DNA of 29,202 nt, from positions 1-29,202 of IMG/VR virus record IMGVR_UViG_3300031746_000122; one strand, written 5' to 3'. Source of the stretch: a virus. Position 1 is the first letter of the stretch. Every line of letters begins with the position of its first letter. The notes below the pieces were generated by a model that saw nothing but the letters and a program-made list of their open reading frames with translations, was not told the origin of the DNA and made no database searches. Shown here piece after piece: positions 2,658-20,814 of the stretch. The position numbers and the translations under genes were made by a program.

Positions 2658-3040
2658 CAGAAATCCTCGTATCTCTTTGGGCCACATCCAAGTTTTTTGA
2701 GCAGGACGTGAACCCTCGCACCACTTATCCCGTGCTTGATTGCAATATCCTTCTTGCGCATCCCAGACTTATAATCATTCACCATCTCTTCATCGCGGTT
2801 TTTCTTGCTATGCAGAACAACATCCCACGATATTTTTCCGGCAGCTGCACGGGATACGGATTTTGATGTTTCTTCAATTTTGATATCCTTGCTCTTAATC
2901 ATTTCCGACAATCCGATAACGACATGGACACTTTGATGGAGCAGATACAAAGCCCTGCTAACAAAGGCATCGTTGAACGGCGGTTTCTGGTTGGTAAGTT
3001 CTCTCACTTCCTTGAGGAAGTATTCCATTCCTGAGTTCAT
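2657..3040 (-). CDS. Unknown protein with C-terminal helix-turn-helix
   Basis: 127 residues, not recognised as a named family. The last third has the pattern of a small HTH: DYKSGMRKKDIAIKHGISGA followed by a second helix ending LLKKLG. Many phage proteins have this 'short basic HTH at the end' layout. The N-terminal part is helical and contains a lysine-rich stretch near residue 50. The ATG at 3040 has AAGGAG nine bases upstream and overlaps the stop of the preceding gene (ATGA), so the two are translationally coupled. Its place just before helicase and primase suggests a replication accessory or regulatory role; this is inference only. Confidence 0.75.
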   Translation of the reverse strand: MNSGMEYFLKEVRELTNQKPPFNDAFVSRALYLLHQSVHVVIGLSEMIKSKDIKIEETSKSVSRAAAGKISWDVVLHSKKNRDEEMVNDYKSGMRKKDIAIKHGISGARVHVLLKKLGCGPKRYEDF

Positions 3041-3624
3041 TTGCTTATTCTCCTTGGATTAACGCCATGCCGATCAAGCGCGGCTTTCAACCCATCGCCT
3101 GTAAGGCCCATGTTGAATGCCGCCCTCTTCATTGATAAACCATTGTTCAAATGATCCACAGCATCCTTGAGACGCTCTTCAGTCCATTTGCCTCTGGGAT
3201 GAACGAGTGGCTCGCGTACCCATGCTTGTCTCCCCTTTTTCCTTCCCTTTTTGATTTTTTTAGTGGCGTTTTCCTGCAAAGCACTGACCAAATCAAATGC
3301 TGATGCAAACATTTTGTAATACGCTCTTTCCACAGCGTTTCTCTCTGCTTCCGGCTTAGTTGACGCCCTGTACGCGATAAACAACGGCTGTCGCTTTTCT
3401 TCCTCGGTCATATTCTCTTCTGCGGCGGCTATGAACGCTTTGTCGTCAAACACCGCTAAAATACTTGCCCTCCTCTCGTTCCAAATTTTATCAAATTTCG
3501 CGTGGAGTTCTGGTTCATGTTCCCATACTTTTTTGTTGTTTAGTGAATGTTCCGGTATCGCCTCATCCAAAATTTTATCAACTAAATCCTTGTATTCTGC
3601 GTTTATCCCTGTTTTTTTTACCAT
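3037..3624 (-). CDS. Unknown protein with basic patch and C-terminal HTH
   Basis: 195 residues, family not recognised. The N-terminal two thirds are helical and acidic, followed by a basic stretch (KKIKKGRKKGRQ, near residues 120-131). The C-terminal HTH-like segment reads KDAVDHLNNGLSMKRAAFNM and onward to LDRHGV. The same 'C-terminal HTH' layout occurs in the next gene. The start is ATG 3624 because GGAGG sits five bases upstream. A longer in-frame reading back to 3762 has composition unlike the rest and no ribosome-binding site, so it is excluded. This is the first gene after the long non-coding gap and probably the first of a replication transcript. Confidence 0.75.
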   Translation of the reverse strand: MVKKTGINAEYKDLVDKILDEAIPEHSLNNKKVWEHEPELHAKFDKIWNERRASILAVFDDKAFIAAAEENMTEEEKRQPLFIAYRASTKPEAERNAVERAYYKMFASAFDLVSALQENATKKIKKGRKKGRQAWVREPLVHPRGKWTEERLKDAVDHLNNGLSMKRAAFNMGLTGDGLKAALDRHGVNPRRISK

Positions 3625-3911
3625 AAAATCCTCCATTTCCAATTTAGTCACAATTCCGCTTCCGCTATCCCCCTGTCCTGTGGAGCATTCACTTGCTCTA
3701 ACAGGCCAGATGCGGACTGAGGGAGGGTTTTGAGCCACTGTATACCCGCACATACCCGTCAAGCTCGGTGGGCCAGTCCGTCCCCCTTGCTGAAGTTACA
3801 GCAATCATTGGGGTGTCTATGTGTGCAGCTTTCCCCTAGTTAACCCAACATCGGGGGCGTCGGAATATCCCACCGCCTCCAGTGGGGAAAAAACCGCCAG
3901 CAGTCCATCCG

Positions 3912-4049
3912 GTTTGAAACTCCGGCTCGTCGCCATTCTTTTTATGGGGGAATAGTCAAAGCCCCATTGAACCTGAGTACACAAACTGCTCAGTCGATTG
4001 TACCAATCGGGCAGTTTGGTATAATCGTTTCAATGGGAGAGTTTCAAAC
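3912..4049. repeat. Nested inverted repeats (large potential cruciform)
   Basis: Four perfectly matched arm pairs are nested in order. The outer pair is GTTTGAAACTC (3912-3922) with GAGTTTCAAAC (4039-4049). The next is CCCATTGAA (3963-3971) with TTCAATGGG (4029-4037). The third is CAAACTGC (3982-3989) with GCAGTTTG (4011-4018). The innermost is CGATTG (3995-4000) with CAATCG (4004-4009) around a TAC loop. The three inner pairs can form one long arm. Such an element could be a structured RNA on either strand, a binding site for a dimeric protein, or part of an origin. Confidence 0.75.
4018..4047 (-). promoter_or_regulatory. Candidate minus-strand promoter for the replication genes
   Basis: On the minus strand TTGAAA (4047-4042) is followed after 18 bases by TATACC (4023-4018), giving 5/6 and 4/6 matches to sigma70. 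Transcription would begin near 4011, inside the inner hairpin, and produce a leader of nearly 390 bases before the gene at 3624. The elements overlap the inverted-repeat arms, so structure or a bound protein could control them. The match is moderate. Confidence 0.35.
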
Positions 4050-4053
4050 GGGG

Positions 4054-4082
4054 TTGTCAAAATGCCTACACGCATTTATAAC
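4054..4082 (+). promoter_or_regulatory. Strong sigma70-type promoter of the small RNA
   Basis: TTGTCA (4054-4059) and TATAAC (4077-4082) each match consensus at 5/6 positions and are separated by exactly 17 bases. The expected start, seven bases after the -10, is G4089, which is the first base of a hairpin. It is the best-looking promoter noticed in the window and points against the flanking minus-strand operon. Confidence 0.75.
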
Positions 4083-4088
4083 TTTCTC

Positions 4089-4171
4089 GTCTGAACCGTT
4101 TCTCTGCCAAGTGAAACTGTCGGTTCAGATGGGCCTCGGTTTGGGATATCCTACCGAGGCCATCTTTTTTT
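4089..4171 (+). ncRNA. Candidate phage small RNA, two stem-loops, about 83 nt
   Basis: This unit begins at the predicted start of a near-consensus promoter and ends in a U-tract. Hairpin 1 pairs TCTGAACCG (4090-4098) with CGGTTCAGA (4121-4129); TTTC/GAAA (4099-4102 with 4113-4116) pairs inside it, leaving a ten-base loop TCTGCCAAGT. Hairpin 2 pairs GGCCTCGGT (4132-4140) with ACCGAGGCC (4153-4161), and its loop contains the palindrome GGATATCC. Seven T residues follow (4165-4171). It lies antisense to the spacer between the SSB-like gene and the HTH-protein gene, so it could act on that transcript or on targets elsewhere. No known family is recognised. Confidence 0.65.
4132..4171 (+). terminator. 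Intrinsic terminator of the small RNA
   Basis: A nine-base-pair GC-rich stem (4132-4140 with 4153-4161) is followed by ATC and seven T residues. Read on the minus strand the hairpin is preceded, not followed, by the homopolymer, so it should terminate only plus-strand transcription. Confidence 0.85.
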
Positions 4172-4362
4172 AGGATACAACTTACTTACTCGTTGTCAAT
4201 AGCAACTTGCACGGTTTCACTGGTGAGGTACGATACCCAAAGTGAAATCCAGAACCATGCCTTGTATTGCCTCCACCATGTTGAGAAATGCAGAAACTTA
4301 ACATGACTTCACAATCGCCCGTTGTTGCTGCGGCTGCGGGGGACCACCTTCACTTTGGTAGA

Positions 4363-4596
4363 TCAGAAGGGAATTTCGTCGTCCAAGTCCGGCGACGACG
4401 ACGAATTCCCTGATTGCGATTTAGCCTCTTTAGGTTTGAATGCCAGAGAGTAGAAACTACTGCCGTCCTTCTCTTTTTTCCACCCAGATACCCAATACTC
4501 GACGCCATCAACAGTTGCCTGACCTTGAATGTCAGGGTGTTTATCTAATTCTTTCCGTTTGTTCTTGCCGATAATCCCGCTATTGTCGTAAGCCAT
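4363..4596 (-). CDS. Small SSB-like phage protein with DDEIPF tail
   Basis: 77 residues. The N-terminal body (about residues 1-57) has the beta-rich pattern of small phage proteins beginning MAYDNSGIIGKN, with HPDIQGQATVDGVEYWVSGW in the middle. It is followed by a Ser/Gln/Asn-rich linker and the C-terminal tip DLDDEIPF. That acidic tip with terminal Pro-Phe is the hallmark by which bacterial and phage single-stranded DNA-binding proteins recruit partners, so a role on ssDNA at the replication fork is likely, although it is shorter than a normal OB-fold SSB. The ATG overlaps the preceding TAA by one base, and GGAG lies seven bases upstream. The codons of the acidic tail also form a strong hairpin (4369-4410). 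Confidence 0.75.
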   Translation of the reverse strand: MAYDNSGIIGKNKRKELDKHPDIQGQATVDGVEYWVSGWKKEKDGSSFYSLAFKPKEAKSQSGNSSSSPDLDDEIPF

Positions 4597-4835: not shown

Positions 4836-5044
4836 CACTGTACCCTTCTGCTGTTCAACACCTTTTGTGCAATGGCCCGACCACGATCTGCCGTCCACTT
4901 GCCGGATGCAAGTCGTTCCAAAGCATCCTTGAACGCTGCATGATCTAATTCGTACTTCAACGCTTCCTTGTAGCGTTCATGCCATTCTGAAGCCTGTGTC
5001 TGCCAATATTCCGCTGGTATCATTTCTTTATAGTCTTCCATCAC
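4835..5044 (-). CDS. Small hypothetical helical protein
   Basis: 69 residues, or 68 if ATG 5041 is used. Tyr/Trp-rich N-terminus (EYWQTQASEWHERYKEALKY), then a basic helical C-terminus. No family is recognised. The first codon can be GTG at 5044 or the adjacent ATG at 5041; both follow AAGGAGAAAGA, and the TGA of the previous gene overlaps the ATG. It belongs to the string of tightly coupled small early genes. Confidence 0.65.
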   Translation of the reverse strand: MMEDYKEMIPAEYWQTQASEWHERYKEALKYELDHAAFKDALERLASGKWTADRGRAIAQKVLNSRRVQ

Positions 5045-5208
5045 TCTTTCTCCTTCAGTGCTTCACGGGCTATTTCCTGCATGGTGTCCCCGTCTTCATA
5101 CGGATTTATAATGTTGGCGATATCAGCCAACGCTTCCCGCAACCGCTCATTCTCCGCTTTTAATTTGTTGTAATTAAAATAAATATTAATTGTCCCAATG
5201 GCATCCAT
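5041..5208 (-). CDS. Small coiled-coil protein
   Basis: 55 residues, beginning MDAIGTINIYFNYNKLKAEN and ending AREALKEKE. The middle (KLKAENERLREALADIANII) is a clear leucine-heptad coiled coil. It fits exactly between two genes: its ATG overlaps the upstream TGA (TGATG), and its own TGA overlaps the next start. AAGGAG lies upstream of the start. The last residues match those of the neighbouring paralogue (ALKEKE), and the nucleotide junctions are nearly identical, indicating local duplication. It may be an adaptor or structural partner of the adjacent helical proteins; the function is unknown. Confidence 0.7.
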   Translation of the reverse strand: MDAIGTINIYFNYNKLKAENERLREALADIANIINPYEDGDTMQEIAREALKEKE

Positions 5209-5447
5209 CACTCTTTCTCCTTGAGTGCGGCGTACGCAAGAGCCTGACCATGGCCCGAGCCTTCCTCTGCAATTTGTTGCAGGACTTGCTTCAACCTATT
5301 GATCTCTTCTACAAATTTGTCCATCCATTCAAACGCTAGTTGTTTGTCTTTCCTCAGTTGCTCGATCTCGTCGGCTGCCTCGGCACATAACTCACCTTCA
5401 TAGTTCCAACTTATTTCAACGGTTTTTAGTCGCTCAACTATGTCCAT
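5208..5447 (-). CDS. Small helical protein of the 'MDIVERL' type, copy 2
   Basis: 79 residues, beginning MDIVERLKTVEISWNYEGEL, then CAEAADEIEQLRKDKQ and a long heptad-rich helix (FVEEINRLKQVLQQIAEEG), ending YAALKEKE. The DIVERL and AADEIEQLR elements define a common group of uncharacterised short phage proteins. The start at ATG 5447 is chosen because GGGAGG precedes it and the codon overlaps the previous TGA. A longer frame to 5477 overlaps the neighbouring gene and lacks a ribosome-binding site. Confidence 0.7.
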   Translation of the reverse strand: MDIVERLKTVEISWNYEGELCAEAADEIEQLRKDKQLAFEWMDKFVEEINRLKQVLQQIAEEGSGHGQALAYAALKEKE

Positions 5448-5641
5448 CACTCTTCCTCCCAATATTTGCTTTCCCAACCTTCATTCCAGTAACCCCGTCT
5501 TGGGTCATCTGGAGGCCAAGGATTAGCGTCTATAAGATACCCATCCCTAAATGCCATCCTGCCTTCTGCCCGTGTTGTGTCTGGGTGGGCAACGAGGTCG
5601 AGAAAAGCATCTAACGACATCTTCATTGTGCTGTCAGTCAT
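5447..5641 (-). CDS. Rmf/CrpP-like small protein
   Basis: 64 residues. The core EGRMAFRDGYLIDANPWPPD followed by YWNEGWESKY fits the small Rmf/CrpP-type pattern: a helix containing A..DG, an NPW/NPY turn, and a second helix with W..GW. Ribosome modulation factor dimerises and inactivates ribosomes in bacteria; phage members of this group have no established role. The assignment rests on the pattern only. ATG 5641 overlaps the preceding TGA (ATGA), with AAGGTGA upstream; internal Met residues at 6 and 8 are alternative starts. The glutamate-rich end (EEE) encodes the ribosome-binding site of the next gene. Confidence 0.6.
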   Translation of the reverse strand: MTDSTMKMSLDAFLDLVAHPDTTRAEGRMAFRDGYLIDANPWPPDDPRRGYWNEGWESKYWEEE

Positions 5642-5979
5642 CTGATAATCACCTTGATCTTGATACCGTGAAACAACTCCGCTGCCTTCTTCCTGAGACG
5701 GTACGCGGCATCCTTTGCCGTCCCTGTAGACTTTAACTCCTCAATGATCCGTTCACCCTTTAGCGTGTAGGCAAAGTCTGCCGTGTAGGTGCAGTAGTGT
5801 TGGTCATTGATAGAAACACGGAACTCAGGTTGCAGTTCAAGATCAGAGATTTCTTTGGCCCTGACCCACAGCTTGAGTTCCGCATATCGCTTCATCTCCT
5901 TCTTGGACGCAAACGCAATACCATCTAGCGTCCTCTCGTCGATTGGCGACACTGCAAATCTATTTTTATTTTTTATCAA
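5638..5979 (-). CDS. DUF1064-family phage nuclease-like protein
   Basis: About 113 residues. The pattern matches DUF1064: DGIAFASKKEMKRYAELK near the N-terminus, then LQPEFRV, YTADFAY and IEELKSTGTAKDAAYRLRKK. The Glu in the first helix, Asp of TADF and E-L-K form a PD-(D/E)XK-type active site, so it probably cuts branched or damaged DNA during replication and recombination. The start is the TTG at 5979, with GGGGG seven bases upstream and about 16 bases downstream of a predicted transcription start. A TTG at 5997 is possible but would fall at or before that start. It is the first gene of the minus-strand early operon. Confidence 0.75.
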   Translation of the reverse strand: MIKNKNRFAVSPIDERTLDGIAFASKKEMKRYAELKLWVRAKEISDLELQPEFRVSINDQHYCTYTADFAYTLKGERIIEELKSTGTAKDAAYRLRKKAAELFHGIKIKVIIR

Positions 5980-5991
5980 CGTCAAGCCCCC

Positions 5992-6019
5992 TTGCAATAT
6001 TATTTTTTTGGGTTATGTT
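5992..6019 (+). promoter_or_regulatory. Candidate promoter of the plus-strand recombination operon
   Basis: TTGCAA (5992-5997) and TATGTT (6014-6019), spaced by 16 bases, are each 4/6 matches. They would start a transcript near 6026, about 28 bases before the first ATG. This element overlaps the opposing minus-strand promoter almost completely. The match is modest, and another promoter is possible. Confidence 0.3.
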
Positions 6020-6030
6020 TCTGTTGTCAA
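6002..6030 (-). promoter_or_regulatory. Candidate promoter of the minus-strand early operon
   Basis: On the minus strand a perfect TTGACA (6030-6025) is followed after 17 bases by AAAAAT (6007-6002, 4/6). Transcription would start near 5995, just before the GGGGG ribosome-binding site of the DUF1064-like gene. The -10 is weak, but the position between two divergent operons supports it. Confidence 0.45.
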
Positions 6031-6053
6031 ACAACGCCACAGGGAGATTAGGA

Positions 6054-6278
6054 ATGGCAACATCGTTTTTCAATGACATTGAAGACTTCAGTATTACCTT
6101 CACATATTCTGATCAGGCAAACAAGACTGCAATGCACATTCTGATCAACACTGCACCTCGGATTGAGGGCCAAGCAGTGTCTCATGAAGAGGCTGTTCTC
6201 ATGTATCGTGGGACACCTTCTCAGCTGCGTGAGAAGCTCGACGCCGAGCTTAAACACTTCATGGCTGCAAATGTATGA
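6054..6278 (+). CDS. Hypothetical early protein
   Basis: 74 residues beginning MATSFFNDIEDFSITFTYSD. The family is not recognised. It looks like a small alpha/beta protein with a helical C-terminus (PSQLREKLDAELKHFMAANV). The start is ATG 6054, with GGAG seven bases upstream (AGGGAGATTAGGA). An upstream frame would run through the promoter region and encode an implausible hydrophobic extension. It is the first gene of the plus-strand operon and overlaps the next gene by eight bases. Confidence 0.7.
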   Translation: MATSFFNDIEDFSITFTYSDQANKTAMHILINTAPRIEGQAVSHEEAVLMYRGTPSQLREKLDAELKHFMAANV

Positions 6279-6432
6279 GGACTACATCACAGGTCATGAA
6301 TGGGGATGGATATTCATGGCCTGTTGGGTGTCTGGGACTCTGCTTATCTACTTTGCATTCTTGCAGGTTCGGAAGTGGAGAAAGAAAGACAATGATCCAT
6401 ATCGTGATGAAGACAACTTTGGGAGACACTAA
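6271..6432 (+). CDS. Small single-pass membrane protein
   Basis: 53 residues: a short N-terminal segment (MYEDYITGHEWG), a strongly hydrophobic helix (WIFMACWVSGTLLIYFAFL) and a basic then acidic tail (RKWRKKDNDPYRDEDN). By the positive-inside rule the C-terminal tail should face the cytoplasm. The function is unknown; small early phage membrane proteins can act in exclusion or inhibition. The start ATG lies within the last codons of the previous gene, and no strong ribosome-binding site is seen, so translation is probably coupled. The stop overlaps the start of the exonuclease gene by one base (TAATG). Confidence 0.65.
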   Translation: MYEDYITGHEWGWIFMACWVSGTLLIYFAFLQVRKWRKKDNDPYRDEDNFGRH

Positions 6433-10239: not shown

Positions 10240-10271
10240 GCCCCCAGACCATAAATCTGGGGGCTTTTTTT
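10240..10271 (+). terminator. Terminator at the convergent operon boundary
   Basis: GCCCCCAGA (10240-10248) pairs with TCTGGGGGC (10256-10264) around a seven-base loop and is followed by seven T residues (10265-10271). It ends the plus-strand operon. The T-run contains the stop codon of the giant minus-strand gene. Read the other way the hairpin is followed by AATTTATTA, so it may weakly stop the late transcript too. Confidence 0.9.
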
Positions 10272-13200
10272 ATTGCCCAAACAACAGCATCAATGGGGAC
10301 TCAGGCGGGGGCTTAATCTTTTCATTAATTTCCCGCATCGTTTTCATTTTTTTATCAATCATCTTTTGAGTAAGAGGAGCGATTTTGTCTTCCTTCATAT
10401 CATCAGGGATTTTGCTGTTATTCTTGATGTCGTCGATCTGGTTCTTAAGAGAATCAAGTTCTTTTTCTGATTTTTTCAAAATGCCCGGAACGCTACCCCT
10501 TTGGGTTTGAATTTCTTTCCCACGAAGGTTCACGTCAAGTTTTTCTGCAAGCCTAAACGCCGTCTCCTTTGCTTCAGCATCTTTGTTATTCTTTACATAA
10601 TGCTGATAGGCATTGCTCATCTGACGTTCCATAGCGGTCACTTCAGATTTGGTTTCAAAATACTTGTTGTCAGATATCTTATCTGTGTTTGTCAGGAACC
10701 TGCGGAAAAATGGCATTTTCTGATAAGGAGTGTCTATTCCTTCCCATGTGTTCTCAAGGGCTTTATAGCCGCCCTTTACAAACGACCCTATGCCTTGTGT
10801 CAAGTTCTGCGCCCAGTAATCAATAGTCCCCGGATAGATATCCAACCAACCCTTGTTATAGGCATCACCATTAGTCGCACGGCTCAACCAATCCGCAATG
10901 CTTTTGCTTTCATCGCTTGTTGAAGGGAACGCTTCTTGGGCGGCGGGGAAATTCTCCTGACCCGGATATACTTCCGGATGAATTTTCTGCCCCTTCCAAT
11001 CACGGTTAACAGATGTTTCAACAAGCTGTTGAAACCCAAATGGAAGGATTGAATGCACCATTGAGCCATTGCCTAATGGATTGAATGAGTCAGTCCAAGA
11101 CGTAACCATATTTACAGCAGCATTGATTGGCTCGATTTGCCCAAATGATACTGCAACCAAGTTGTCTGCCATAACAGCAATAGGGTTCAATATGAATCCG
11201 TAAGGAATTTTGTAGTAATTTCCTTCAGAATTTGTAAACGGAAGAATCAAATGGGTAAGGCGTTCATAACCCTTAACCTGTGTAAAGTACTTCTTCTTGC
11301 CGGGTTCATTCTCATCGTCTTCAGACATAAAGAATGCCATCAAAGAGTTAAGCAAACACGCGGCAAACAAAGCTGCAAGCAATTGCCTGCCTCTCTTGCC
11401 TCCTTTATAAAGCCTAACCATGCTTCTGATGCCACCAATTCTGGCAGCAAGGAATGGCTTCAATGCGTTTATCCAAGGCATCCATGCACCCTTGGCACGA
11501 AAATCAACTGTCGCTCTACGAGACAGCTGAGCGGCTTTGGCAGTGGTGTATCCATTTTTGCGAGCCGCACGATATACAGCAAATCTAATCGTATCTTCAA
11601 ACAGCTGATTAACTTTTTCCATTGCTTCAAGAGTGGTAAGACCACCCTTTTTAAGCAATCGCACCATTTCTTCAGGGTTGCTGTCTTTTACTTTGAAGGC
11701 TTCACGCATGGCGTCGTTAATTTTTTCTTGCGCTCTTTCAATAGTCTCAAACCCACCAAAGTCCATCTTGCCGCCAGAAAGAATCCATTCATTATAAATA
11801 GACTTTTCTTGATTGGACAATGTTTGACCAGTCACCACTTTAAAAATAGTTTTAGCTGAACTGGAAAACTCTTTAACAAACTCCGTGTTTAATCCTTTTT
11901 TGCTGCCATACATATTGATCATGGCATCTTGGATATCGCGTGGGAAGTTGACCAAGAAGAAGTCTGGAACCCATGTTGTGTTGATCTTTGACATAAAACG
12001 TCCAACTGTCATTATGTGTTTCATAACTTCAGTTGTGTTCTCATTCATATTCTTTAGAGCTTTAACAAGCCTAACCATGTTTGGGTTATCATCGTTAAAG
12101 ACAATGTAATGCTGCTTGCCATCAATCTTTACAGGCAATGATACATCTAAGTTCAACATACCAAAGTCAGGAACTTCAACAACTGTTCCATCAGACGCCA
12201 AAATACGGCGTTTAGGAACATTAAAAGGGTTCATAATTTTAGCAAGCTCTTCATTTGGGTTGTTCTTGACCAACTCATAAAGAGCCTTATCAACTTTTGC
12301 CTTCTCAGCCCTAACAATACCGTCCATCCGTTTCTGGATAGCGTTTATGAGAGGATTGCGGGCGCGAGACTTACGACCAGTTGCACTCTTGAATTCTTTA
12401 CCGCGTAAAGAAAACCCGCGCCCAACCTGTGGAGGTGCGCTATTTGGTTGCGCTTCATCTTCCGCAAACCCAGTCAGCGGAACATAATACTGATAACCTT
12501 TTGTGTATTGGTCGTACTGCTCTGAAGTGAGCAAACCAGCGTTGAAACGATCCCGGAGGTCGCGCTTTAGCATTGGATAGACAAACCTGTTTGCCAACAA
12601 ATTCATTGTATTAAATGTTCCATCGCGACGGAATTCGTCAAGAATCCTGTCTGCCTCGTCCGTTTTCATGCCGGAGCCACCAACGGGGAACTTAATAGCA
12701 TCTCGCTTTGCCATCTCTGCGTTACGCTCTTCTGCATGACGAGCGTACAAGAACTCAGAAAAATCAGTGTCAGCGATTTTATTTTCCTGAAGTGCTTTGA
12801 GAAGCGGCTTTACCTCTGAATCCCATGCAACCTTTTGACGGTTGATTGCACGATCATTGTAAAGCTGGAGTGCTAGATAAGCATCCATGCTTTCCGGCAA
12901 CGGAGAGCCACGGAATTCCTCAATAACTTTTTGAACCTCACGCAAGTCATTGTATTTCTCAACAAGACCGTAAAGAAGTTCTTTGCCAAAGTTAGAGCTT
13001 GGCATTTCAAAGTTTGTGCTTTGAGGGGCAGCGTTCCTTCTCCGGCCCATTGCCATGAAAGACAGCTTCAATTCTGGCAGTCCAATCCTAGACGCCATAT
13101 CCTCTGCCGTTTGCTCAATGCGGTCGCTCATTGATCCAAAATAGAAATCAGTGAAGACCGTGCTTGCATCACGGAAGCCCATAAACTTTTTGACTGCATT

Positions 13201-16200
13201 GCGGAACCTCTTCCACATGAGCCATCCCTTGTGGAATGTTTCATAGGTAGAGCGAGACAGAGAACCTTCTGGCAATTTAATGCCAGCATCCATCATCGCA
13301 CCAAACATACCCATAGCGTATGCGTCTTGCTCACCTATTGGGAGAGAAAGGATTTTCTCAGGCGTAACGCCATAGAACTTGGCAACGGCAACAGCATTTC
13401 TTTCGCGGTTCTTTTCCAAAGAAGACCGCTCATCACTGGTTAAGAACTTGTCAATGACGTGCCATGCTTCATGGTAGACAGCATCTCCCGGAGAAGCGCC
13501 GCTCTCAAGGTCAGTAGCCAAGTAAATAATGCCAGCAACATCGTCATATGCTCCAGCAGCATTGCCTTTGGCAACGCCACCAGACCGTTCTGCGGCTGTT
13601 GCATCTTCCATGCTGATTGTGTTCATGAACTCGACGCCAGCCTTGTCTCCGACTAGACGCTCAACAATACCACGCAGTTCATCATACAATGGCTGGGCAT
13701 CGGCTTTAGCCTTTGGCTCCAGTTGTTGCATTGCAGCATATTGTGCAGCTGGTTTCTTACCTTCAACTTCAAACCGAGCGCCAAGTTTAATCAAACGATC
13801 AAATACCGCTTCAAACTTTTCACTGCTTTTACTTATCGAGGCTTCCATTGCCGACCTGCCGGATGAAGTAAAATCAGTTCCCAACATTTCAAGTAGGGTT
13901 CTATCAAGATAGTATTTGCCACCTTTGTTTTTAGCTTTTGGAACAACAATTTTAACCAAATTATTCCAAGTATTAACATTAATCATAACATCTTGTGTTG
14001 GAGTAACCAAAGTTGTGGGAAGTTTATCACCTTGAAAAAAGTGATCTCTAAATTCTTTGCCTGTTTTTAGAATAACTTTAGACGAGCCAAAGGCTTGATC
14101 AAGCGTCTTAACACCGACAGGGAGCATGATGCCTTGCTTCAATTCACCATCATCTGTCGTGAAGTTAATGATTGTCCCTTTGCCATTGATCAAATCAAAC
14201 CCGGCAAGGATATTACCCGTAGCTATAACGCGCTTGTCACGAATATCTGATTTAGCAAGATCGTTAAAAATTTTGACAGTCATTTTCTCTTCATCAGCCC
14301 AACTTGGATTGCTGATAACAGTTCTTTGACCATATTCACCATCAATCTGAAGTTGGGAAAACGGCATTGTTAACATTGGCTGTGCTGACGGAAGAGCAAA
14401 TGTTACTCGCCAATCTCCAAGAGCAAGCGGGTTTTTAGTTTTGCCACCACGGGCAACACTAACAACCAAGCCAACACTTGTTTCCCCATTAGGCCCAGTT
14501 ACACGAACGCGCCGACCGGGAACCAGCATATCTGATGCGACGTTAAACGCAGAACGGATAGCCCAGAGACGGTCGCTTTCCTTAGTTTGTTTATTGGATT
14601 CTGTCTCATCAAGGATTGCTCTTTCATAGAGTTTAAAATCCTTCACAGCCTCGGAATAAAAATTTTGCGATTTATCTCGCAGAAGCTTGCTTATTCTAAG
14701 GTATTTTAAAGCCTCGATATCATCTGGTGGAATTTCCTTAATGTCATTGGCATCGACAACTTTATCTATCGCATCTCGCATAGATATTGGCTTGCCTTGA
14801 CGTTTTACGTCATAATGTCCGTAGACAACAGGTTTTGTAAATGGGCTATCCCCTTCACCTGCTTGCGCTACTTTTTCTTCAATTAATTTTGCGTCAAGAT
14901 CGAGAGTTTTGGCTTCAAGAGTATTAACCCCTTGAGCTTCAAGTTGTTCCATTAAATCTTTATAACGAGCTTCAAGCTCGACATAAATTTCTTCCTGTTC
15001 TTTAAGACGCAATAGAACAAGACGACCCGTTAGCTTCCGCATTAAATCAAAGTTATCAGCTTTGCTATCTTTTCTATCCACACTAATTTCTACATTAAGG
15101 CGATCTTGTAATTCAGGATTATCTTCCATGAAAGCAACTGCTACCTGATCACCATATTCATTCATAAAGTCTGGAGCATTTTCAGCTGACAATGCTCCTT
15201 TACGAGCGCCAGTTGTATTGGCGGCAAGTGAGGCCATTTTTTTGGACAACACGGCAGCCGGACGTTTTTCAGCCGGGATATTGGCAATCATCTGAATGTA
15301 TTCAGGCAGCACAACTTGGCCCGTCCGGTGAACACGGCCAAGCATCTGCATATGCGTATCAATATTGGCTTCCGGTTGGACAAGAATCATTTGGCGTTTT
15401 TGTTGATTTTTGAACTTTTCACTTGCGTGGATTGAAAGACCAGTCGCCCCCGCTTGGTTTAAGACGATAACGTCCATATCAAGGTTGTTGAAAGCATTGA
15501 TCGTATTACGACGACCCTTGACGTTTAATTCTGAAGCTGGGCGAGAAGAAAGAACTGGTTTTTTACCAGAGTAATCAATGGTTAAACCACGGCCAGTTAT
15601 TTCTCCAACCTTATATCCTTTCTTCTGAAGTTCATTTTTCATGTAGTCGATTGGAGATATTGGAAGTTTTGAAAGGTCTAAATTAGAAATGTAATCTTTG
15701 ATGGCGTGAAACATTCTAACGCCACCTTCTCCAAGTTGTTCATTTGTTAATAAAACTTTTTCAGCTTTTTCACCTTTGAACATAAATGGTCTTTTTATTG
15801 TGATATATCTGTTGCGTTCTAAATAACGCATCAAAAGATCGTTAAAATCCATATCAATTATGTCACCATTTTCTAATGGTTTAATTTTTATAGACCCTGT
15901 ACTTGAACGTACAAACTCTGTTGAATTTGCATCTCCTTGTTCTTGAATTTCTTTTAAAAACGCTCCCATTGTATTGGCAACGGTGAGAACTGGTTTCTTG
16001 CCGTTTTTAAGAGATTCTATAGCCAAATCTACAGCTGGCTTAACTTTCATGGCTAAGAGCATTTGGCTTACAATGTTGTGCATAAGAGCAGTAAAGTTAA
16101 TAGATTCAGCCCCAGCTCCACCTGTTGAACTATCTGGCGATATAGATTTAGCTTCTGCTTTAATATCTTTTGAAATTTCACTTGTAATGTTAGCAACATA

Positions 16201-19200
16201 GTCAGAGAACCTTTGAATTTGTGATAAAGCATCACAAAAATCATCATAGGTTTTTAAATCAACACTTACTTCACGGGCATCATACGTTACACCAGCAAAC
16301 GACCGTTCACGCCGGATGTACTGCCCAGCATCCGCAAGCATGGATGCAACAACTTGCTGCATCGGGATGCCACCATTTTGGATAGCTTCTGCTAGAGCTT
16401 CAGGGCTACTAACCGCTTTGCTCATATCGGTCTTGTAATAAAGGTCCATAACGTCTGGACGCTTGGCATACGTTGCCGACGAGTAAAAAACAGCCTTAGC
16501 CTCTCCAACTAAATTGCGGACAAATTGAGCGCGGCTCATTCCTTCATCATTATCTGCATTAGCTGAGCCGCCAGCATTATGACTTTCATCCAGAATTAAT
16601 AAAGATTTAGAAGCAATAGCTTCTAAGAAAGTTTGACGCTCTGTTTGTTTTCCCTTAACCGTTTGCATCTGGTTATAAGTTGTAAAAACAATATTGTAAT
16701 CCCCAATGCTACCTTGGGTTGCAAGCTGTTTAAGAAGATCATTATGTTTAGCACCCGTCTTCAGGGTAACTTCACCATCCTCATCTAATGGGACAGACTC
16801 ATTTGAGTTGGTCATTAAAATTCTTGGGTTTTTGCCGCCCAAGATATCTTGAATGCCAATATCATTCATATCACGATACATATCGCCATAAAGGTTTGGC
16901 TTTTCTGTTGTGAAAATTGGGATCATCTTATTCTTCAACGCATACCGGATAACACCCGCATTAACGCGACCTTTACCAATGCCTGTTTGATCTCCAATGA
17001 TAAAGCCAGCGCCCTTTTCAAAATTGTCAATGGCCATGCCAAGGGCATCAACTTGCTCAGCAGAAAAGTATTTTGCAAGGTCATCAATCTTGTAGCCTAA
17101 TTTTTCAGCAACAAATTTATCAATGCTACCATGTTTAGTTTCTATTTTATTCAAAGCATTTTGAGTCGCTGTTTTCATATTAATTGGAACAAGTGTTCCC
17201 AAGCCTTGAGTCTTGGTAGACTTAGGTTCATATGAAACTTGTCCAGCAGTTTCTTGTTCACGCTGTTTTGGTTCTATTTTTTTTGTTGGTAATTCTTCCG
17301 GCTGTGAAGGAGGGGTTACAGATTCCTCTGTTGTAGTACTTTTATTTAATCCTGATTCCCCATCAGGAGCCAACTGATCGAGTCGCTTGGTGTTTCCCCG
17401 TTCAGTGCTTGTTTCAGGCTCTGATGGTTTAACACTTGATCCAAGTTGGGGTTGCTCGACACTAGGTTGTTTAGAAATTCCTCCAGTGGTTGAAACGCCG
17501 GATTTCCCCCCAGAAGGTCGTTGTCCGACATCATCCTCACCACCTCCACTTGTTGTTGCACTCTTTCCTTTGGAGTCAGGCTGCTGAATTGTTTCCACAG
17601 GTGGTCGTACAGGGCGTTTTTCATTTGAAATGTGTTCATTTGCCAACTTTTCCTTTAACTGATCCCAAGACGTAATTATTTCAGGAGCCTTTACAGCAGG
17701 AAGGCTACGGCCTTCTGTCTTACCCCTGCCATTAATAACAATCACATCGACAGGCCAACTTGCTCCCTGTTTGGAGTAGAGTTTTCCATCGACTGTAAAG
17801 TGATCCGTAACTTTATATTTGTTATAAAGGGTGTAATAAAATTCTCTCTTAGACTTTATGTTGTAAGCGTCTTCACGTTCATCTGCTTGATAAGCGTTTA
17901 GAATGTCTGCATTTTTGCCAGTAAAAGGATTTACGCTTCCAACAATTAAAACTGCACGACCATCATCGTCCATTTCTTCAAGAGCTTTTAATGAAATGGC
18001 ATGATCAATCTCTTTTGTCTTGTAACCTTCTTGAGCAAAATCAAGATTGAACACTTTGTTATTGCCATTTTCATCCTTAACCGTTCCAAATGGGGGGTTA
18101 GCAATGATTACATTGGCAGACTTGTTAGGCGTTATCTGGTTGATTGTTGCGGCATCATGCCCAGTTGCCTTAAACCCTTGCTTTTCAAGGTTACGGCGAC
18201 GAACGGCATTAAGCTCATTAGCATGAGATTTGTTCTGATCTGCCCCAATAAGCAACGCGCCGTTGCCAGCTGTAGGTTCAAGAACTGTTGTGCCTTTGTC
18301 AATTCCAGCAAGGCGGGATGCGACATAAGCCAACGGAACTGGAGTCGAGTAGGCTTGTTGAAGGATACTGGTAGATGTACGAGTTGATAGGGTTGGTTGT
18401 TTATTATAAAGATTTACTAAATTGTCATAGGTATCAACTGTAGAATTTCCTTCATCTACAATCTTCCTTGCCTTCCTAACGATAGCAAGCTCCATAGCTT
18501 CTTCAACTAGCTTATCGTCCTCAGTGCCTACTGTTTCTTTGGCAATTTTACGAGCTTGGAGAATGTTTTTAAAACCATCTGATCCAAGGACAGGCTCAAA
18601 AGCATTAGATAACTTATCAATATTGTCCTCTTCCTTCAAAGGAGGGGCAACATTTTCAGTGATTGCTTCTTCTGTGTTGATTGGAGACTCAGATGTTGGT
18701 TTAGTTAAATTGCCTTCTTCCAGAGGCGCTTCATCTGCATTCCCAAAAGGAGACTGATAATTAGGTTTTGCACCAATCAAATCTGCAAAATCGCGGTTTT
18801 GTCGGTTATGCTCTTCCTCGCTTATGGTAGGAATATCGGAAACAGGAGCTTCAGCATCAGGAGTAGAAACAGGAGGAGGAGCTAGAAAATTAGGATTTAG
18901 CGGCGGCCCTGCAAATGGAGCAACAGTTTCAGGAGCTACTGCGACTTCCGGCTGTGGAAGAGGGGCTATAGCTTCCTCAACAGACTTTATTGGAAGTTGT
19001 GCAGGTGCTTCTATAATAGGCGTCTCAATAGGAGAAGCGGCTGCTTCTTTGATTGCAGTAAGAGGTGATGCACCTTCTTCAACAAGCTGTTCAGCTTTTG
19101 CAGATGGAGCTTGAGTTTCTGGAGCCAAGGCTGGTGGCTTTTGTCCCATTGCCTGTTCAATTGCAGAATTGACTGTGTTTTGAAGGTCAGCAATTCTCTC

Positions 19201-20814
19201 TGGTGATATTGAATTAACAATGTTCTCTGCTTCAACAAGTTCATTTCTGGAGAAGCCTGTTGCAGTTTCACTAGATTGATAATCTTCCAACAGTTTTTTA
19301 GCGTTATTAACAGTGGTTAAAGTATCAATAGCCTGCTGAACTTCAGGAGGAATATTTACTACTGGGGCTTCAGGAGCCGGAATTACTTCCGGCCCCCGCG
19401 CCTCAACAACACCAGCCGGGGAAGGCGGCTGTGCCGGAGCTGGCTTTGGTGCATTGCCAAATATCTGATCAAAACTCATATTTATAATTTGTTCTGGAGA
19501 ATAACCTTCAGCCTCCAGCTTAGATTCCAATTCTTTTTGTGTTAAATTTTTTGGCTTAACAGATGTAGAGGCAGACGGTTTAACAGGAGCAGCAGGGCCA
19601 CCCGGACCCGGAAGCAATGGGCGAGGGCCAGTTAACAATGAAGTTCCTGCTGGGCCAGCACCAGATGAAGCCTGACTAGATGGCGTCGGCGTTGACCTCA
19701 TTGCAGCCAATAGTGCAACTGGAATACCCATAGCCGCGCTTTGAGCAGTAAGATCAGCCCATTCAGCCGCCGTCATAGGAGGCGCGTCTTGCATCACAAC
19801 TTTGCCACTAGCATCGGTTAGTGGAGCGCCTGTGTTTGTATTAATTACTGGTATCTGATCAAGATAGCGTTGAGTCGCGCCCTGACCAACCATAATGCCA
19901 GTGCCTAAAATAGCGACTGCAACACCTTCTTTAATATTTGATGGTCCCGGAAGAGCGCCTAATGCAGCATTAAATGCACCAGAAACTGCGCCTTTTTGTT
20001 TAGCAGCAGTTAAAATTTCATCTTTATTGGCACGATAGACCTGCATAAACTGGTCTTTATCGGTTAATTTGCCGCCACGTTTTTCTATTTCATCAAGAAC
20101 AGATTGATTATAGGTTGTAGTAGCACCATAAAGACCAGCGCCAACAGGGCCACCAAAAACAGTAGAAAAAATCATAGGTGCGCTTTGAACAACCATTCCG
20201 GTCATACTTTTAGCCGCACCCATAGGATCATCTTCAATTGCTGCAAGAGTTTCAGATGTCCAGTCTTTCAAAGTACCAGACTCAACAGCCTTTTTATATT
20301 TTTTGCTAAATTCTGATTTTGGAAGAGCTGCAATCTCTGCTTTAGTTTTATCTATCGCTGCCAATTCTGGAGCAAGATTTTCAGGAGCTTTAAATACTTT
20401 ATAACCTACCAATGCACGTTGATATGCTTCAATTTTATCATTGTTGGACCCGTCTTGATTATTTGCTTGAAGTTCATTAATGCGATTTTGGATATTATCT
20501 ATTTGGTCAGCAGTATTAAAACCTTGACCAGCGGCCATAACCTGCGCTTGCTTTTTAAGCTCCAATGCACCCGGAATTTCAGCTTCTGACAATGTTTTAA
20601 AACCGGGGACATATTCGTCAACAACGCCAAGGACTGTATTGGCAGCACTTTCCAACCGGGGCATACCTGTCCCCGTAAAGATATTTTTTGGTGCTACTTC
20701 TTCTGGTCGTGGCGTCGGCTCCGGGATTGAAGTTATTGGGTCATTTTCCCAAAATTTACCACCGCCACCAGCACCTTGAGATACCAATGGATCGTCTTCC
20801 CAGAATTTTGCCAT
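10270..20814 (-). CDS. Giant polyvalent virion protein: methylase, SNO helicase, metallopeptidase-like, LPD38
   Basis: 3514 residues, more than a third of the window. The N-terminus repeats a FWExDP motif twice (KFWEDDPLV, KFWENDPIT), followed by helical and small-residue-rich segments. A Pro/Ala-rich disordered stretch covers about 370-720. An N6-adenine methylase follows, with motif I LEPTAGNGA (845-853) and motif IV NPPFG (906-910). After a Ser/Gly/Pro linker (about 1060-1200) comes a strawberry-notch-type SF2 helicase: GDQTGIGKGR (1274-1283), DESH (1409-1412), YSSATY, GATGLSIHA near 1790 and GRVHRTGQ (1826-1833). A coiled coil lies near 1935-1980. HEAWH at 2448-2452 marks a zinc-peptidase-like domain. 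The last 600 residues fit LPD38, including a hydrophobic segment near 3150-3170, and the end is lysine-rich. P1 DarB and Bcep22-group giant proteins have similar methylase-helicase cores and travel in the virion, so an injected anti-restriction role is the best inference. It is the last gene of the late operon. Confidence 0.9.
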   Translation of the reverse strand: MAKFWEDDPLVSQGAGGGGKFWENDPITSIPEPTPRPEEVAPKNIFTGTGMPRLESAANTVLGVVDEYVPGFKTLSEAEIPGALELKKQAQVMAAGQGFNTADQIDNIQNRINELQANNQDGSNNDKIEAYQRALVGYKVFKAPENLAPELAAIDKTKAEIAALPKSEFSKKYKKAVESGTLKDWTSETLAAIEDDPMGAAKSMTGMVVQSAPMIFSTVFGGPVGAGLYGATTTYNQSVLDEIEKRGGKLTDKDQFMQVYRANKDEILTAAKQKGAVSGAFNAALGALPGPSNIKEGVAVAILGTGIMVGQGATQRYLDQIPVINTNTGAPLTDASGKVVMQDAPPMTAAEWADLTAQSAAMGIPVALLAAMRSTPTPSSQASSGAGPAGTSLLTGPRPLLPGPGGPAAPVKPSASTSVKPKNLTQKELESKLEAEGYSPEQIINMSFDQIFGNAPKPAPAQPPSPAGVVEARGPEVIPAPEAPVVNIPPEVQQAIDTLTTVNNAKKLLEDYQSSETATGFSRNELVEAENIVNSISPERIADLQNTVNSAIEQAMGQKPPALAPETQAPSAKAEQLVEEGASPLTAIKEAAASPIETPIIEAPAQLPIKSVEEAIAPLPQPEVAVAPETVAPFAGPPLNPNFLAPPPVSTPDAEAPVSDIPTISEEEHNRQNRDFADLIGAKPNYQSPFGNADEAPLEEGNLTKPTSESPINTEEAITENVAPPLKEEDNIDKLSNAFEPVLGSDGFKNILQARKIAKETVGTEDDKLVEEAMELAIVRKARKIVDEGNSTVDTYDNLVNLYNKQPTLSTRTSTSILQQAYSTPVPLAYVASRLAGIDKGTTVLEPTAGNGALLIGADQNKSHANELNAVRRRNLEKQGFKATGHDAATINQITPNKSANVIIANPPFGTVKDENGNNKVFNLDFAQEGYKTKEIDHAISLKALEEMDDDGRAVLIVGSVNPFTGKNADILNAYQADEREDAYNIKSKREFYYTLYNKYKVTDHFTVDGKLYSKQGASWPVDVIVINGRGKTEGRSLPAVKAPEIITSWDQLKEKLANEHISNEKRPVRPPVETIQQPDSKGKSATTSGGGEDDVGQRPSGGKSGVSTTGGISKQPSVEQPQLGSSVKPSEPETSTERGNTKRLDQLAPDGESGLNKSTTTEESVTPPSQPEELPTKKIEPKQREQETAGQVSYEPKSTKTQGLGTLVPINMKTATQNALNKIETKHGSIDKFVAEKLGYKIDDLAKYFSAEQVDALGMAIDNFEKGAGFIIGDQTGIGKGRVNAGVIRYALKNKMIPIFTTEKPNLYGDMYRDMNDIGIQDILGGKNPRILMTNSNESVPLDEDGEVTLKTGAKHNDLLKQLATQGSIGDYNIVFTTYNQMQTVKGKQTERQTFLEAIASKSLLILDESHNAGGSANADNDEGMSRAQFVRNLVGEAKAVFYSSATYAKRPDVMDLYYKTDMSKAVSSPEALAEAIQNGGIPMQQVVASMLADAGQYIRRERSFAGVTYDAREVSVDLKTYDDFCDALSQIQRFSDYVANITSEISKDIKAEAKSISPDSSTGGAGAESINFTALMHNIVSQMLLAMKVKPAVDLAIESLKNGKKPVLTVANTMGAFLKEIQEQGDANSTEFVRSSTGSIKIKPLENGDIIDMDFNDLLMRYLERNRYITIKRPFMFKGEKAEKVLLTNEQLGEGGVRMFHAIKDYISNLDLSKLPISPIDYMKNELQKKGYKVGEITGRGLTIDYSGKKPVLSSRPASELNVKGRRNTINAFNNLDMDVIVLNQAGATGLSIHASEKFKNQQKRQMILVQPEANIDTHMQMLGRVHRTGQVVLPEYIQMIANIPAEKRPAAVLSKKMASLAANTTGARKGALSAENAPDFMNEYGDQVAVAFMEDNPELQDRLNVEISVDRKDSKADNFDLMRKLTGRLVLLRLKEQEEIYVELEARYKDLMEQLEAQGVNTLEAKTLDLDAKLIEEKVAQAGEGDSPFTKPVVYGHYDVKRQGKPISMRDAIDKVVDANDIKEIPPDDIEALKYLRISKLLRDKSQNFYSEAVKDFKLYERAILDETESNKQTKESDRLWAIRSAFNVASDMLVPGRRVRVTGPNGETSVGLVVSVARGGKTKNPLALGDWRVTFALPSAQPMLTMPFSQLQIDGEYGQRTVISNPSWADEEKMTVKIFNDLAKSDIRDKRVIATGNILAGFDLINGKGTIINFTTDDGELKQGIMLPVGVKTLDQAFGSSKVILKTGKEFRDHFFQGDKLPTTLVTPTQDVMINVNTWNNLVKIVVPKAKNKGGKYYLDRTLLEMLGTDFTSSGRSAMEASISKSSEKFEAVFDRLIKLGARFEVEGKKPAAQYAAMQQLEPKAKADAQPLYDELRGIVERLVGDKAGVEFMNTISMEDATAAERSGGVAKGNAAGAYDDVAGIIYLATDLESGASPGDAVYHEAWHVIDKFLTSDERSSLEKNRERNAVAVAKFYGVTPEKILSLPIGEQDAYAMGMFGAMMDAGIKLPEGSLSRSTYETFHKGWLMWKRFRNAVKKFMGFRDASTVFTDFYFGSMSDRIEQTAEDMASRIGLPELKLSFMAMGRRRNAAPQSTNFEMPSSNFGKELLYGLVEKYNDLREVQKVIEEFRGSPLPESMDAYLALQLYNDRAINRQKVAWDSEVKPLLKALQENKIADTDFSEFLYARHAEERNAEMAKRDAIKFPVGGSGMKTDEADRILDEFRRDGTFNTMNLLANRFVYPMLKRDLRDRFNAGLLTSEQYDQYTKGYQYYVPLTGFAEDEAQPNSAPPQVGRGFSLRGKEFKSATGRKSRARNPLINAIQKRMDGIVRAEKAKVDKALYELVKNNPNEELAKIMNPFNVPKRRILASDGTVVEVPDFGMLNLDVSLPVKIDGKQHYIVFNDDNPNMVRLVKALKNMNENTTEVMKHIMTVGRFMSKINTTWVPDFFLVNFPRDIQDAMINMYGSKKGLNTEFVKEFSSSAKTIFKVVTGQTLSNQEKSIYNEWILSGGKMDFGGFETIERAQEKINDAMREAFKVKDSNPEEMVRLLKKGGLTTLEAMEKVNQLFEDTIRFAVYRAARKNGYTTAKAAQLSRRATVDFRAKGAWMPWINALKPFLAARIGGIRSMVRLYKGGKRGRQLLAALFAACLLNSLMAFFMSEDDENEPGKKKYFTQVKGYERLTHLILPFTNSEGNYYKIPYGFILNPIAVMADNLVAVSFGQIEPINAAVNMVTSWTDSFNPLGNGSMVHSILPFGFQQLVETSVNRDWKGQKIHPEVYPGQENFPAAQEAFPSTSDESKSIADWLSRATNGDAYNKGWLDIYPGTIDYWAQNLTQGIGSFVKGGYKALENTWEGIDTPYQKMPFFRRFLTNTDKISDNKYFETKSEVTAMERQMSNAYQHYVKNNKDAEAKETAFRLAEKLDVNLRGKEIQTQRGSVPGILKKSEKELDSLKNQIDDIKNNSKIPDDMKEDKIAPLTQKMIDKKMKTMREINEKIKPPPESPLMLLFGQ

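Follow-up and report, generated by a model that had tools for sequence, protein, structure and literature searches.

A predicted antisense RNA pair with a structured leader and plasmid-like layout in podovirus-like phage genomes

The stretch of viral DNA analysed here, referred to as the window, is 29,202 nucleotides long (positions 1 to 29,202 of IMG/VR record IMGVR_UViG_3300031746_000122). Around the locus under study its minus strand carries genes for phage replication, namely those for a single-strand DNA binding protein (SSB), an HTH-like protein recognised by eye, a helicase, and a primase. The SSB gene and the gene for the HTH-like protein, a 195-aa product with no Pfam match, are separated by a non-coding stretch of 738 bp (3625-4362), and the segment 3640-4175 is unusually structured as a whole (z = -7.2 on the plus strand and -5.7 on the minus strand). 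A sequence-only reading of the window had described 118 non-coding bases (4054-4171) holding a small RNA; the parts of this RNA do lie within these bases, but the non-coding DNA around them is much longer. The features are listed in Table 1. In a near relative (L002), the copy of the 195-aa gene is without the HTH-like C-terminal part and ends near the start of the next gene. Also on the minus strand of the window are short genes with related starts (MMDIVERLR...AADEIERLRE; about 5000-6300), which occur in L021, L025, L057, and L059 as well, often in overlapping stop-start order, and look like diverging paralogues. A giant polyvalent protein of 3514 aa (10270-20814, minus strand) contains a Strawberry-notch-type helicase (AAA_34, Helicase_C_4), an N6-methylase-like stretch, and LPD38.

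Table 1. Features of the RNA I/RNA II locus and its flanking genes, in window coordinates.
Feature	Position	Strand	Details
RNA I promoter, TTGTCA-17-TATAAC	4054..4082	+	-35 at 4054-4059, -10 at 4077-4082; 10/12 consensus positions
RNA I, predicted 83-nt antisense RNA	4089..4171	+	Hairpin 1, terminator hairpin, U7; from fold, covariance model, and pair counts
Hairpin 1	4089..4130	+	Loop TCTGCCAAGT; outer stem GUCUGAACC/GGUUCAGAU
Predicted RNA I intrinsic terminator, hairpin 2 and U-run	4132..4171	+	Hairpin 4132-4161; T7 4165-4171
RNA II promoter, TTGACA-16-TATCCT	4172..4199	-	Abuts RNA I terminator; start expected near 4166-4164
RNA II, predicted ~540-nt structured leader, class A body	3625..4166	-	From convergent promoter to ATG at 3624
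Gamma arm of RNA II, CCCAUUGAA	4029..4037	-	100% complementary to 3963-3971
Delta arm of RNA II, GGUUCAAUGGG	3963..3973	-	Pairs with gamma; GGUUCA can alternatively pair with hairpin 1 5' arm
Class A body 3' end: G run, GCGGAAGCGGA, TAAATT	3641..3680	-	Conserved in class A
First gene behind RNA II, 195-aa protein	3037..3624	-	HTH-like C-terminus by eye
Single-strand DNA binding protein gene, upstream side of RNA II	4363..4596	-	phrog_7364, E 1e-16

The plus-strand RNA, here called RNA I, is predicted to start with the G at 4089, and a promoter as good as the one spaced to this G was seen in 0.2% of shuffles only. Its minimum free energy is -39.2 kcal/mol against -20.1 +/- 2.9 kcal/mol for shuffled sequences (z = -6.5), a value reached by 0 of 200 shuffles. 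Hairpin 2 has a palindromic loop, GGATATCC, and it was omitted by the terminator scan because this loop is longer than the 8 nt allowed. All parts listed in the earlier reading, from the promoter with its 17-base spacer and the start G to the two hairpins, the palindromic loop, the seven U residues, and the length of about 83 nt, were recovered where it had placed them. An inverted repeat, AAATGC-CTACAC-GCATTT, occupies 4060-4077 between the -35 and -10 elements, and one base breaks it in L002. No tRNA or tmRNA was found in the region.

Homologous loci were collected from IMG/VR contigs by pattern searches with the hairpin and the leader, which also gave distant loci, and with a covariance model (R1) built from nine sequences, the window among them. 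After duplicate removal there are about twenty distinct RNA I homologues, 78-88 nt in length, to which the L119-L123 group was added; the homologues keep the U-run. The model recovers 20 loci, of which L012 is new relative to the patterns, and scores the window RNA I, itself one of the nine sequences, at 91 bits. In the 20-pair structure of RNA I, 99.7% of the cells are standard pairs among the homologues. Two-sided changes occur in 6 pairs and 30 cells, against 6.4 +/- 2.0 cells after shuffling, and in 1 pair when slid. The compensatory stem changes in relatives that had been proposed as a check are thus present, and all six of these pairs belong to the outer stem of the terminator, where they make up 6 of 9 pairs. 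In hairpin 1 the inner stem is variable, whereas the outer one hardly changes at all and therefore speaks neither for nor against its own pairing. The 17-bp spacer of the RNA I promoter is kept across divergent homologues; in L071 and L075 the scorer chose a 15-bp alternative, yet TTGACC-17-TAAGTT is present in the sequence. Overall, the comparison supports RNA I as a real small RNA.

A second promoter, on the minus strand, abuts the RNA I terminator in every locus tested. In the homologues it mostly reads TTGACA/T/G-16 to 18-TATNNT, with TTGACA-18-TAGCTT in L025 and a weak TTGAAC-17-TAGATT in L083 and L087 as exceptions. Promoters of this quality appear in 0-6% of shuffles for 17 of 19 loci, and in 23-26% for L083 and L087. 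The transcript predicted from it, RNA II, has RNA I as the exact complement of its first ~80 nt. This part is followed by a conserved body, about 350-400 nt long, which falls into two classes: class A (the window, L002, L012, L080, L082-L084, L086, L087, L096, L097, L102, and L119-L123) and class B (L019, L020, L025, L057-L060, and L071), whose leaders have long nearly invariant stretches. A pattern made from the far (3') part of the class A leaders matched 14 loci, and RNA I is found about 450 nt upstream in 14 of 14. Therefore, the proposal that the RNA stands alone did not hold, as it is half of a pair. The proposal that it is antisense to the surrounding transcript was borne out more exactly than it had been worded, since RNA I is the complement of the beginning of a dedicated leader whose convergent promoter is conserved in the homologues.

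The same hairpins could be read as an inter-operon terminator that merely stops transcription, the promoters being due to chance or background antisense activity, and such hairpins are common in the window. This explanation is very improbable, since the 17-bp spacing and both promoters are kept in divergent loci, hairpin 1 lies outside the terminator, and the window and L002 share a conserved leader body.

For body helices that are predicted on both strands, the asymmetry of G-U against A-C cells indicates which strand may be under selection. In these helices, G-U cells on the RNA II strand and on the RNA I strand stand at 17:3 in class A and 27:4 in class B; these tallies come from related sequences, so that the independent events are fewer than the cells. 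Due to this excess, the body looks selected as a minus-strand RNA. The wobbles of the terminator stem, in contrast, fall on the RNA I strand. It appears, from these strand-specific wobbles, that both strands bear functional RNA. Comparison of the homologues thus supports both promoters, the RNA I terminator, the complementarity of the two RNAs, their constant linkage, and selection on each strand for an RNA fold.

In nearly all homologues the RNA II strand gives the better fold of hairpin 1; the window is the exception. On RNA I the loop of this hairpin is CYGCCAAG in most homologues, with few changes, and the opposite-strand loop is CUUGGCRG, which includes a YUNR motif. The inside of this hairpin changes fast: the near relative L002/L021 is highly identical to the window here, yet the hairpin 1 interior is replaced, and between the window and L002 11 of 24 sites differ inside hairpin 1 as compared to 21 of 546 elsewhere (p = 4e-9). 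The conserved loop, together with its own promoter and terminator, could suggest a stand-alone small RNA acting in trans on host or phage mRNAs through TCTGCCAAGT, as had been proposed. There is, however, little likelihood of this: the RNA II promoter and leader body are always alongside, hairpin 1 is mostly better folded on the opposite strand, and RNA II already offers a perfect match to the loop; action on other mRNAs through it is unsupported.

Known families do not account for the locus. Rfam 15 gave no relevant match for the window at gathering and lax thresholds or for four homologue loci at lax thresholds, in agreement with the earlier view of an undescribed RNA; the sole Rfam match in the region, mir-84, is unrelated. 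No DNA match was found in 50,697 phage records, and none in 72,556 plasmids for the window RNA I and the L102 module. In samples of bacterial genomes searched with the covariance model, with no positive control, 385 genomes of one class gave nothing and 369 of another gave a single match (L118), a chance terminator; pattern matches in bacterial genomes (L026-L056) were judged by inspection to be due to chance. A coding reading of the region was rejected, as indels break the frames between homologues and no short open reading frame is common to the divergent loci. A type I toxin-antitoxin system was likewise rejected, since no short open reading frame in RNA II is shared across divergent loci. 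A limited search of the open-access literature returned no description of the module. The kind of control, cis-antisense on a long 5' RNA, is already known, while this family, with its two classes of structured leader and its occurrence in phages, was unmatched in Rfam and in the phage and plasmid collections searched.

The genes next to the module vary. In the window, L002, L012, and L025 the module lies within the ssb-helicase region, in L083 and L087 it precedes terminase-type genes identified by eye, and in most loci the portal gene follows it immediately or, in some cases, after a single small gene. The earlier description of an early operon is therefore not general. The L060 portal protein shares 60% identity with its counterpart in phage record MW202675 and has more remote relatives among the portals of Pelagibacter, Roseobacter, and Caulobacter phages. 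One module was found per record. Where the record includes the following gene, this gene has the same orientation as RNA II and lies about 460-850 nt from the start of that RNA. Homing endonuclease genes lie directly behind RNA II in two different contexts (L025, 2390-2791, HNH; L084, 3397-4047, NUMOD3, and GIY-YIG by eye). Many portal-type loci also have a gene for a 309-310-aa protein, directed as RNA I, with HTH and metallophosphoesterase domains (Pfam, L084 copy); it lies about 270-1200 nt past the RNA I terminator in L071, L075, L080, L084, L086, L102, and L104.

L080 (class A) and L071 (class B) have their modules at one and the same portal locus, between identical neighbours, and either body class can be accompanied by the same terminator hairpin. 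Since the classes swap at one locus and share the terminator hairpin, it appears that the 5' part and the body of RNA II recombine and that the classes are exchangeable. Two interchangeable classes at one portal locus, the long near-invariant stretches of class B, and a complex fold conserved on the RNA II strand would also be consistent with an RNA II that is itself trans-acting or catalytic, such as a ribozyme or a particle RNA, with RNA I adjusting its amount and the downstream gene as a passenger. This is considered improbable because RNA II has no Rfam match, and because no terminator is recognised at the body end in most loci and the RNA runs into a same-strand gene. A U-run behind the final hairpin occurs only in L083 and L087, and RNA II otherwise has no obvious intrinsic terminator.

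In class A, the leader may adopt two folds. Normally the gamma and delta arms would pair, and the letters of this helix co-vary by lineage (CCCAUUGAA/UUCAAUGGG in the window, CCGUCUGA/UCAGACGG in L083). Delta also holds GGUUCA, complementary to UGAACC in the hairpin 1 5' arm (4122-4127), so that this arm, UCUGAACC, is able to pair with GGUUCAGACGG about 140 nt downstream. Of 14 class A sequences, 13 have GGTTCA at RNA II position 183-198, and it is retained in L012 and L119 despite a changed normal partner arm. The alternative pairing of the hairpin 1 arm (alpha) with delta has only 6 bp in the window, and its single-sequence p is mostly no better than chance; it was not found in the class B leaders. 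Overall, the class A pairing suggests a fold switch resembling that of ColE1 RNA II.

Judged by its sequence, RNA I has the marks of a cis-antisense RNA, namely its own promoter, a terminator, and full complementarity to a transcript predicted from the other strand. It is therefore highly probable that RNA I and RNA II form an antisense pair, and, at a lower level of confidence, likely that they make up a plasmid-like antisense control module with RNA II favoured as an operon leader. A proposed mechanism can be described as follows. RNA I, if transcribed, would be a cis-encoded antisense RNA whose pairing partner is the initial ~80 nt of RNA II. First contact would be made through the hairpin 1 loops, CYGCCAAG with CUUGGCRG and its YUNR motif, after which the two RNAs would form a duplex that removes the hairpin 1 5' arm from RNA II. 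Since in class A this arm is otherwise free for delta, RNA I binding would refold the leader and lower its output. RNA II would then most likely serve as a leader that controls the operon downstream, which begins with the portal gene in most phages and comprises the HTH-like protein, helicase, and primase in the window, and repression would extend to these downstream genes.

Given an antisense pair, RNA II has about an even chance of being an operon leader; a replication primer is a possible but weaker candidate, and a trans-acting RNA would be a rather unlikely one. The leader is ranked above the primer with low certainty. In its favour, RNA II has the direction of the next gene and runs into it in all records that include this gene. 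Against it, no obvious intrinsic terminator that could be attenuated is seen outside L083 and L087, the ribosome binding site of the next gene lies beyond the conserved body, so that the route to downstream expression is not visible, and the downstream genes vary by locus, which is unusual for an operon-specific regulator.

Antisense RNA I/RNA II pairs are textbook plasmid copy control. In ColE1, RNA I has 108 nt and RNA II roughly 550 nt, and the phage module resembles this system in its short stem-loop antisense RNA, which matches the start of a long structured RNA, its convergent promoters, the closeness of the RNA I end to the RNA II start, and a fast-changing recognition hairpin. It differs in its setting in phage genomes without visible plasmid genes, in having two hairpins where ColE1 has three, in the lack of detectable sequence similarity, and in an RNA II that runs into phage operons; of the ColE1 features, a primer function, an RNase H site, and Rom would be hypothetical in the phage module. 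Some of the ColE1 details are given in PMC9978351.

The likeness raises the alternative of a ColE1-like origin, in which RNA II would be a preprimer whose 3' end hybridises to the template and is cut to prime synthesis, and RNA I would limit priming and set copy number and incompatibility. The similar layout and sizes (78-88 nt against 108 nt for RNA I, and a leader of about 540 nt), the G-rich 3' stretch of class A, and a single module per record at varied genome positions with no fixed downstream gene are consistent with such an origin, and there are precedents in mycobacteriophages (PMC7157519) and a cyanobacterial plasmid with an RNA I/II-like system (PMC9978351). It is nevertheless unlikely on the whole. 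GC skew, examined as an origin signal, is unchanged at the module and tracks gene direction; several class B leaders have a weak G run or none, so that it fails as a general feature; and the covariance model detects no module in the related phage records L005, L008, and MW202675. Furthermore, the phages encode their own primase and helicase, partition genes were not noticed in records of 33 and 38 kb, and copy control is without evident use to virulent phages. One related scheme, for which the likelihood is slightly lower still, proposes a mobile, RNA-only, replicon-like cassette of podovirus-like phages, in which RNA II primes or licenses DNA replication, RNA I is a diversifying incompatibility determinant that brings plasmid-style copy control to an apparently virulent phage, and the working part is a pair of interchangeable large structured RNAs not described before.

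Other comparable systems are known. The rep leaders of pT181, pIP501, and IncI plasmids are similarly controlled by an antisense RNA against an mRNA 5' leader with a YUNR-type loop, and YUNR loops accelerate pairing of sense and antisense RNAs (PMC6562991). Unlike in those plasmids, no known initiator family is encoded downstream here, where portal, terminase-type, homing endonuclease, or HTH-like/helicase genes are found instead, and no intrinsic terminator or SD-sequestering hairpin is recognised in the phage RNA II. Among phages, lambda OOP, P22 sar (PMC12197685), and P4 CI RNAs act in lysogeny control against mRNA segments. They are like RNA I in being small phage RNAs against an operon transcript, but RNA I would be directed at the initial 80 nt of a long, structured leader, and the pair is found at several genome sites. 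Cluster A mycobacteriophages likewise have a non-coding RNA module, with RNA-based prophage origins proposed to work without an initiator protein (PMC7157519); those origins are linked to parABS in temperate phages, whereas here no parABS or integrase was noticed.

Since RNA I would be made from every genome copy and may act in trans, leader control by RNA I could serve as a gene-dosage sensor and cause incompatibility between related co-infecting phages, which would explain the fast change inside hairpin 1. The module would be a conserved version of RNA I/RNA II at several sites in apparently virulent phages, and, if RNA I does act in trans, it would let RNA measure the copy number of a phage and would make phages incompatible with one another. 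The module gives a testable prediction for co-infection, and it yields two new structured RNA families with sequences enough for covariance models.

Another structured RNA was observed in L021, outside the part shared with the window. Three elements like type II hammerhead ribozymes lie on its plus strand (2180-2243, 3055-3111, and 4126-4185), with scores of 27.8-29.7 bits as compared to the Rfam gathering score of 37. Each is near a gap between short genes, and the two that were displayed have the hammerhead-like core CUGACGA, CGAAAC, and GUC.
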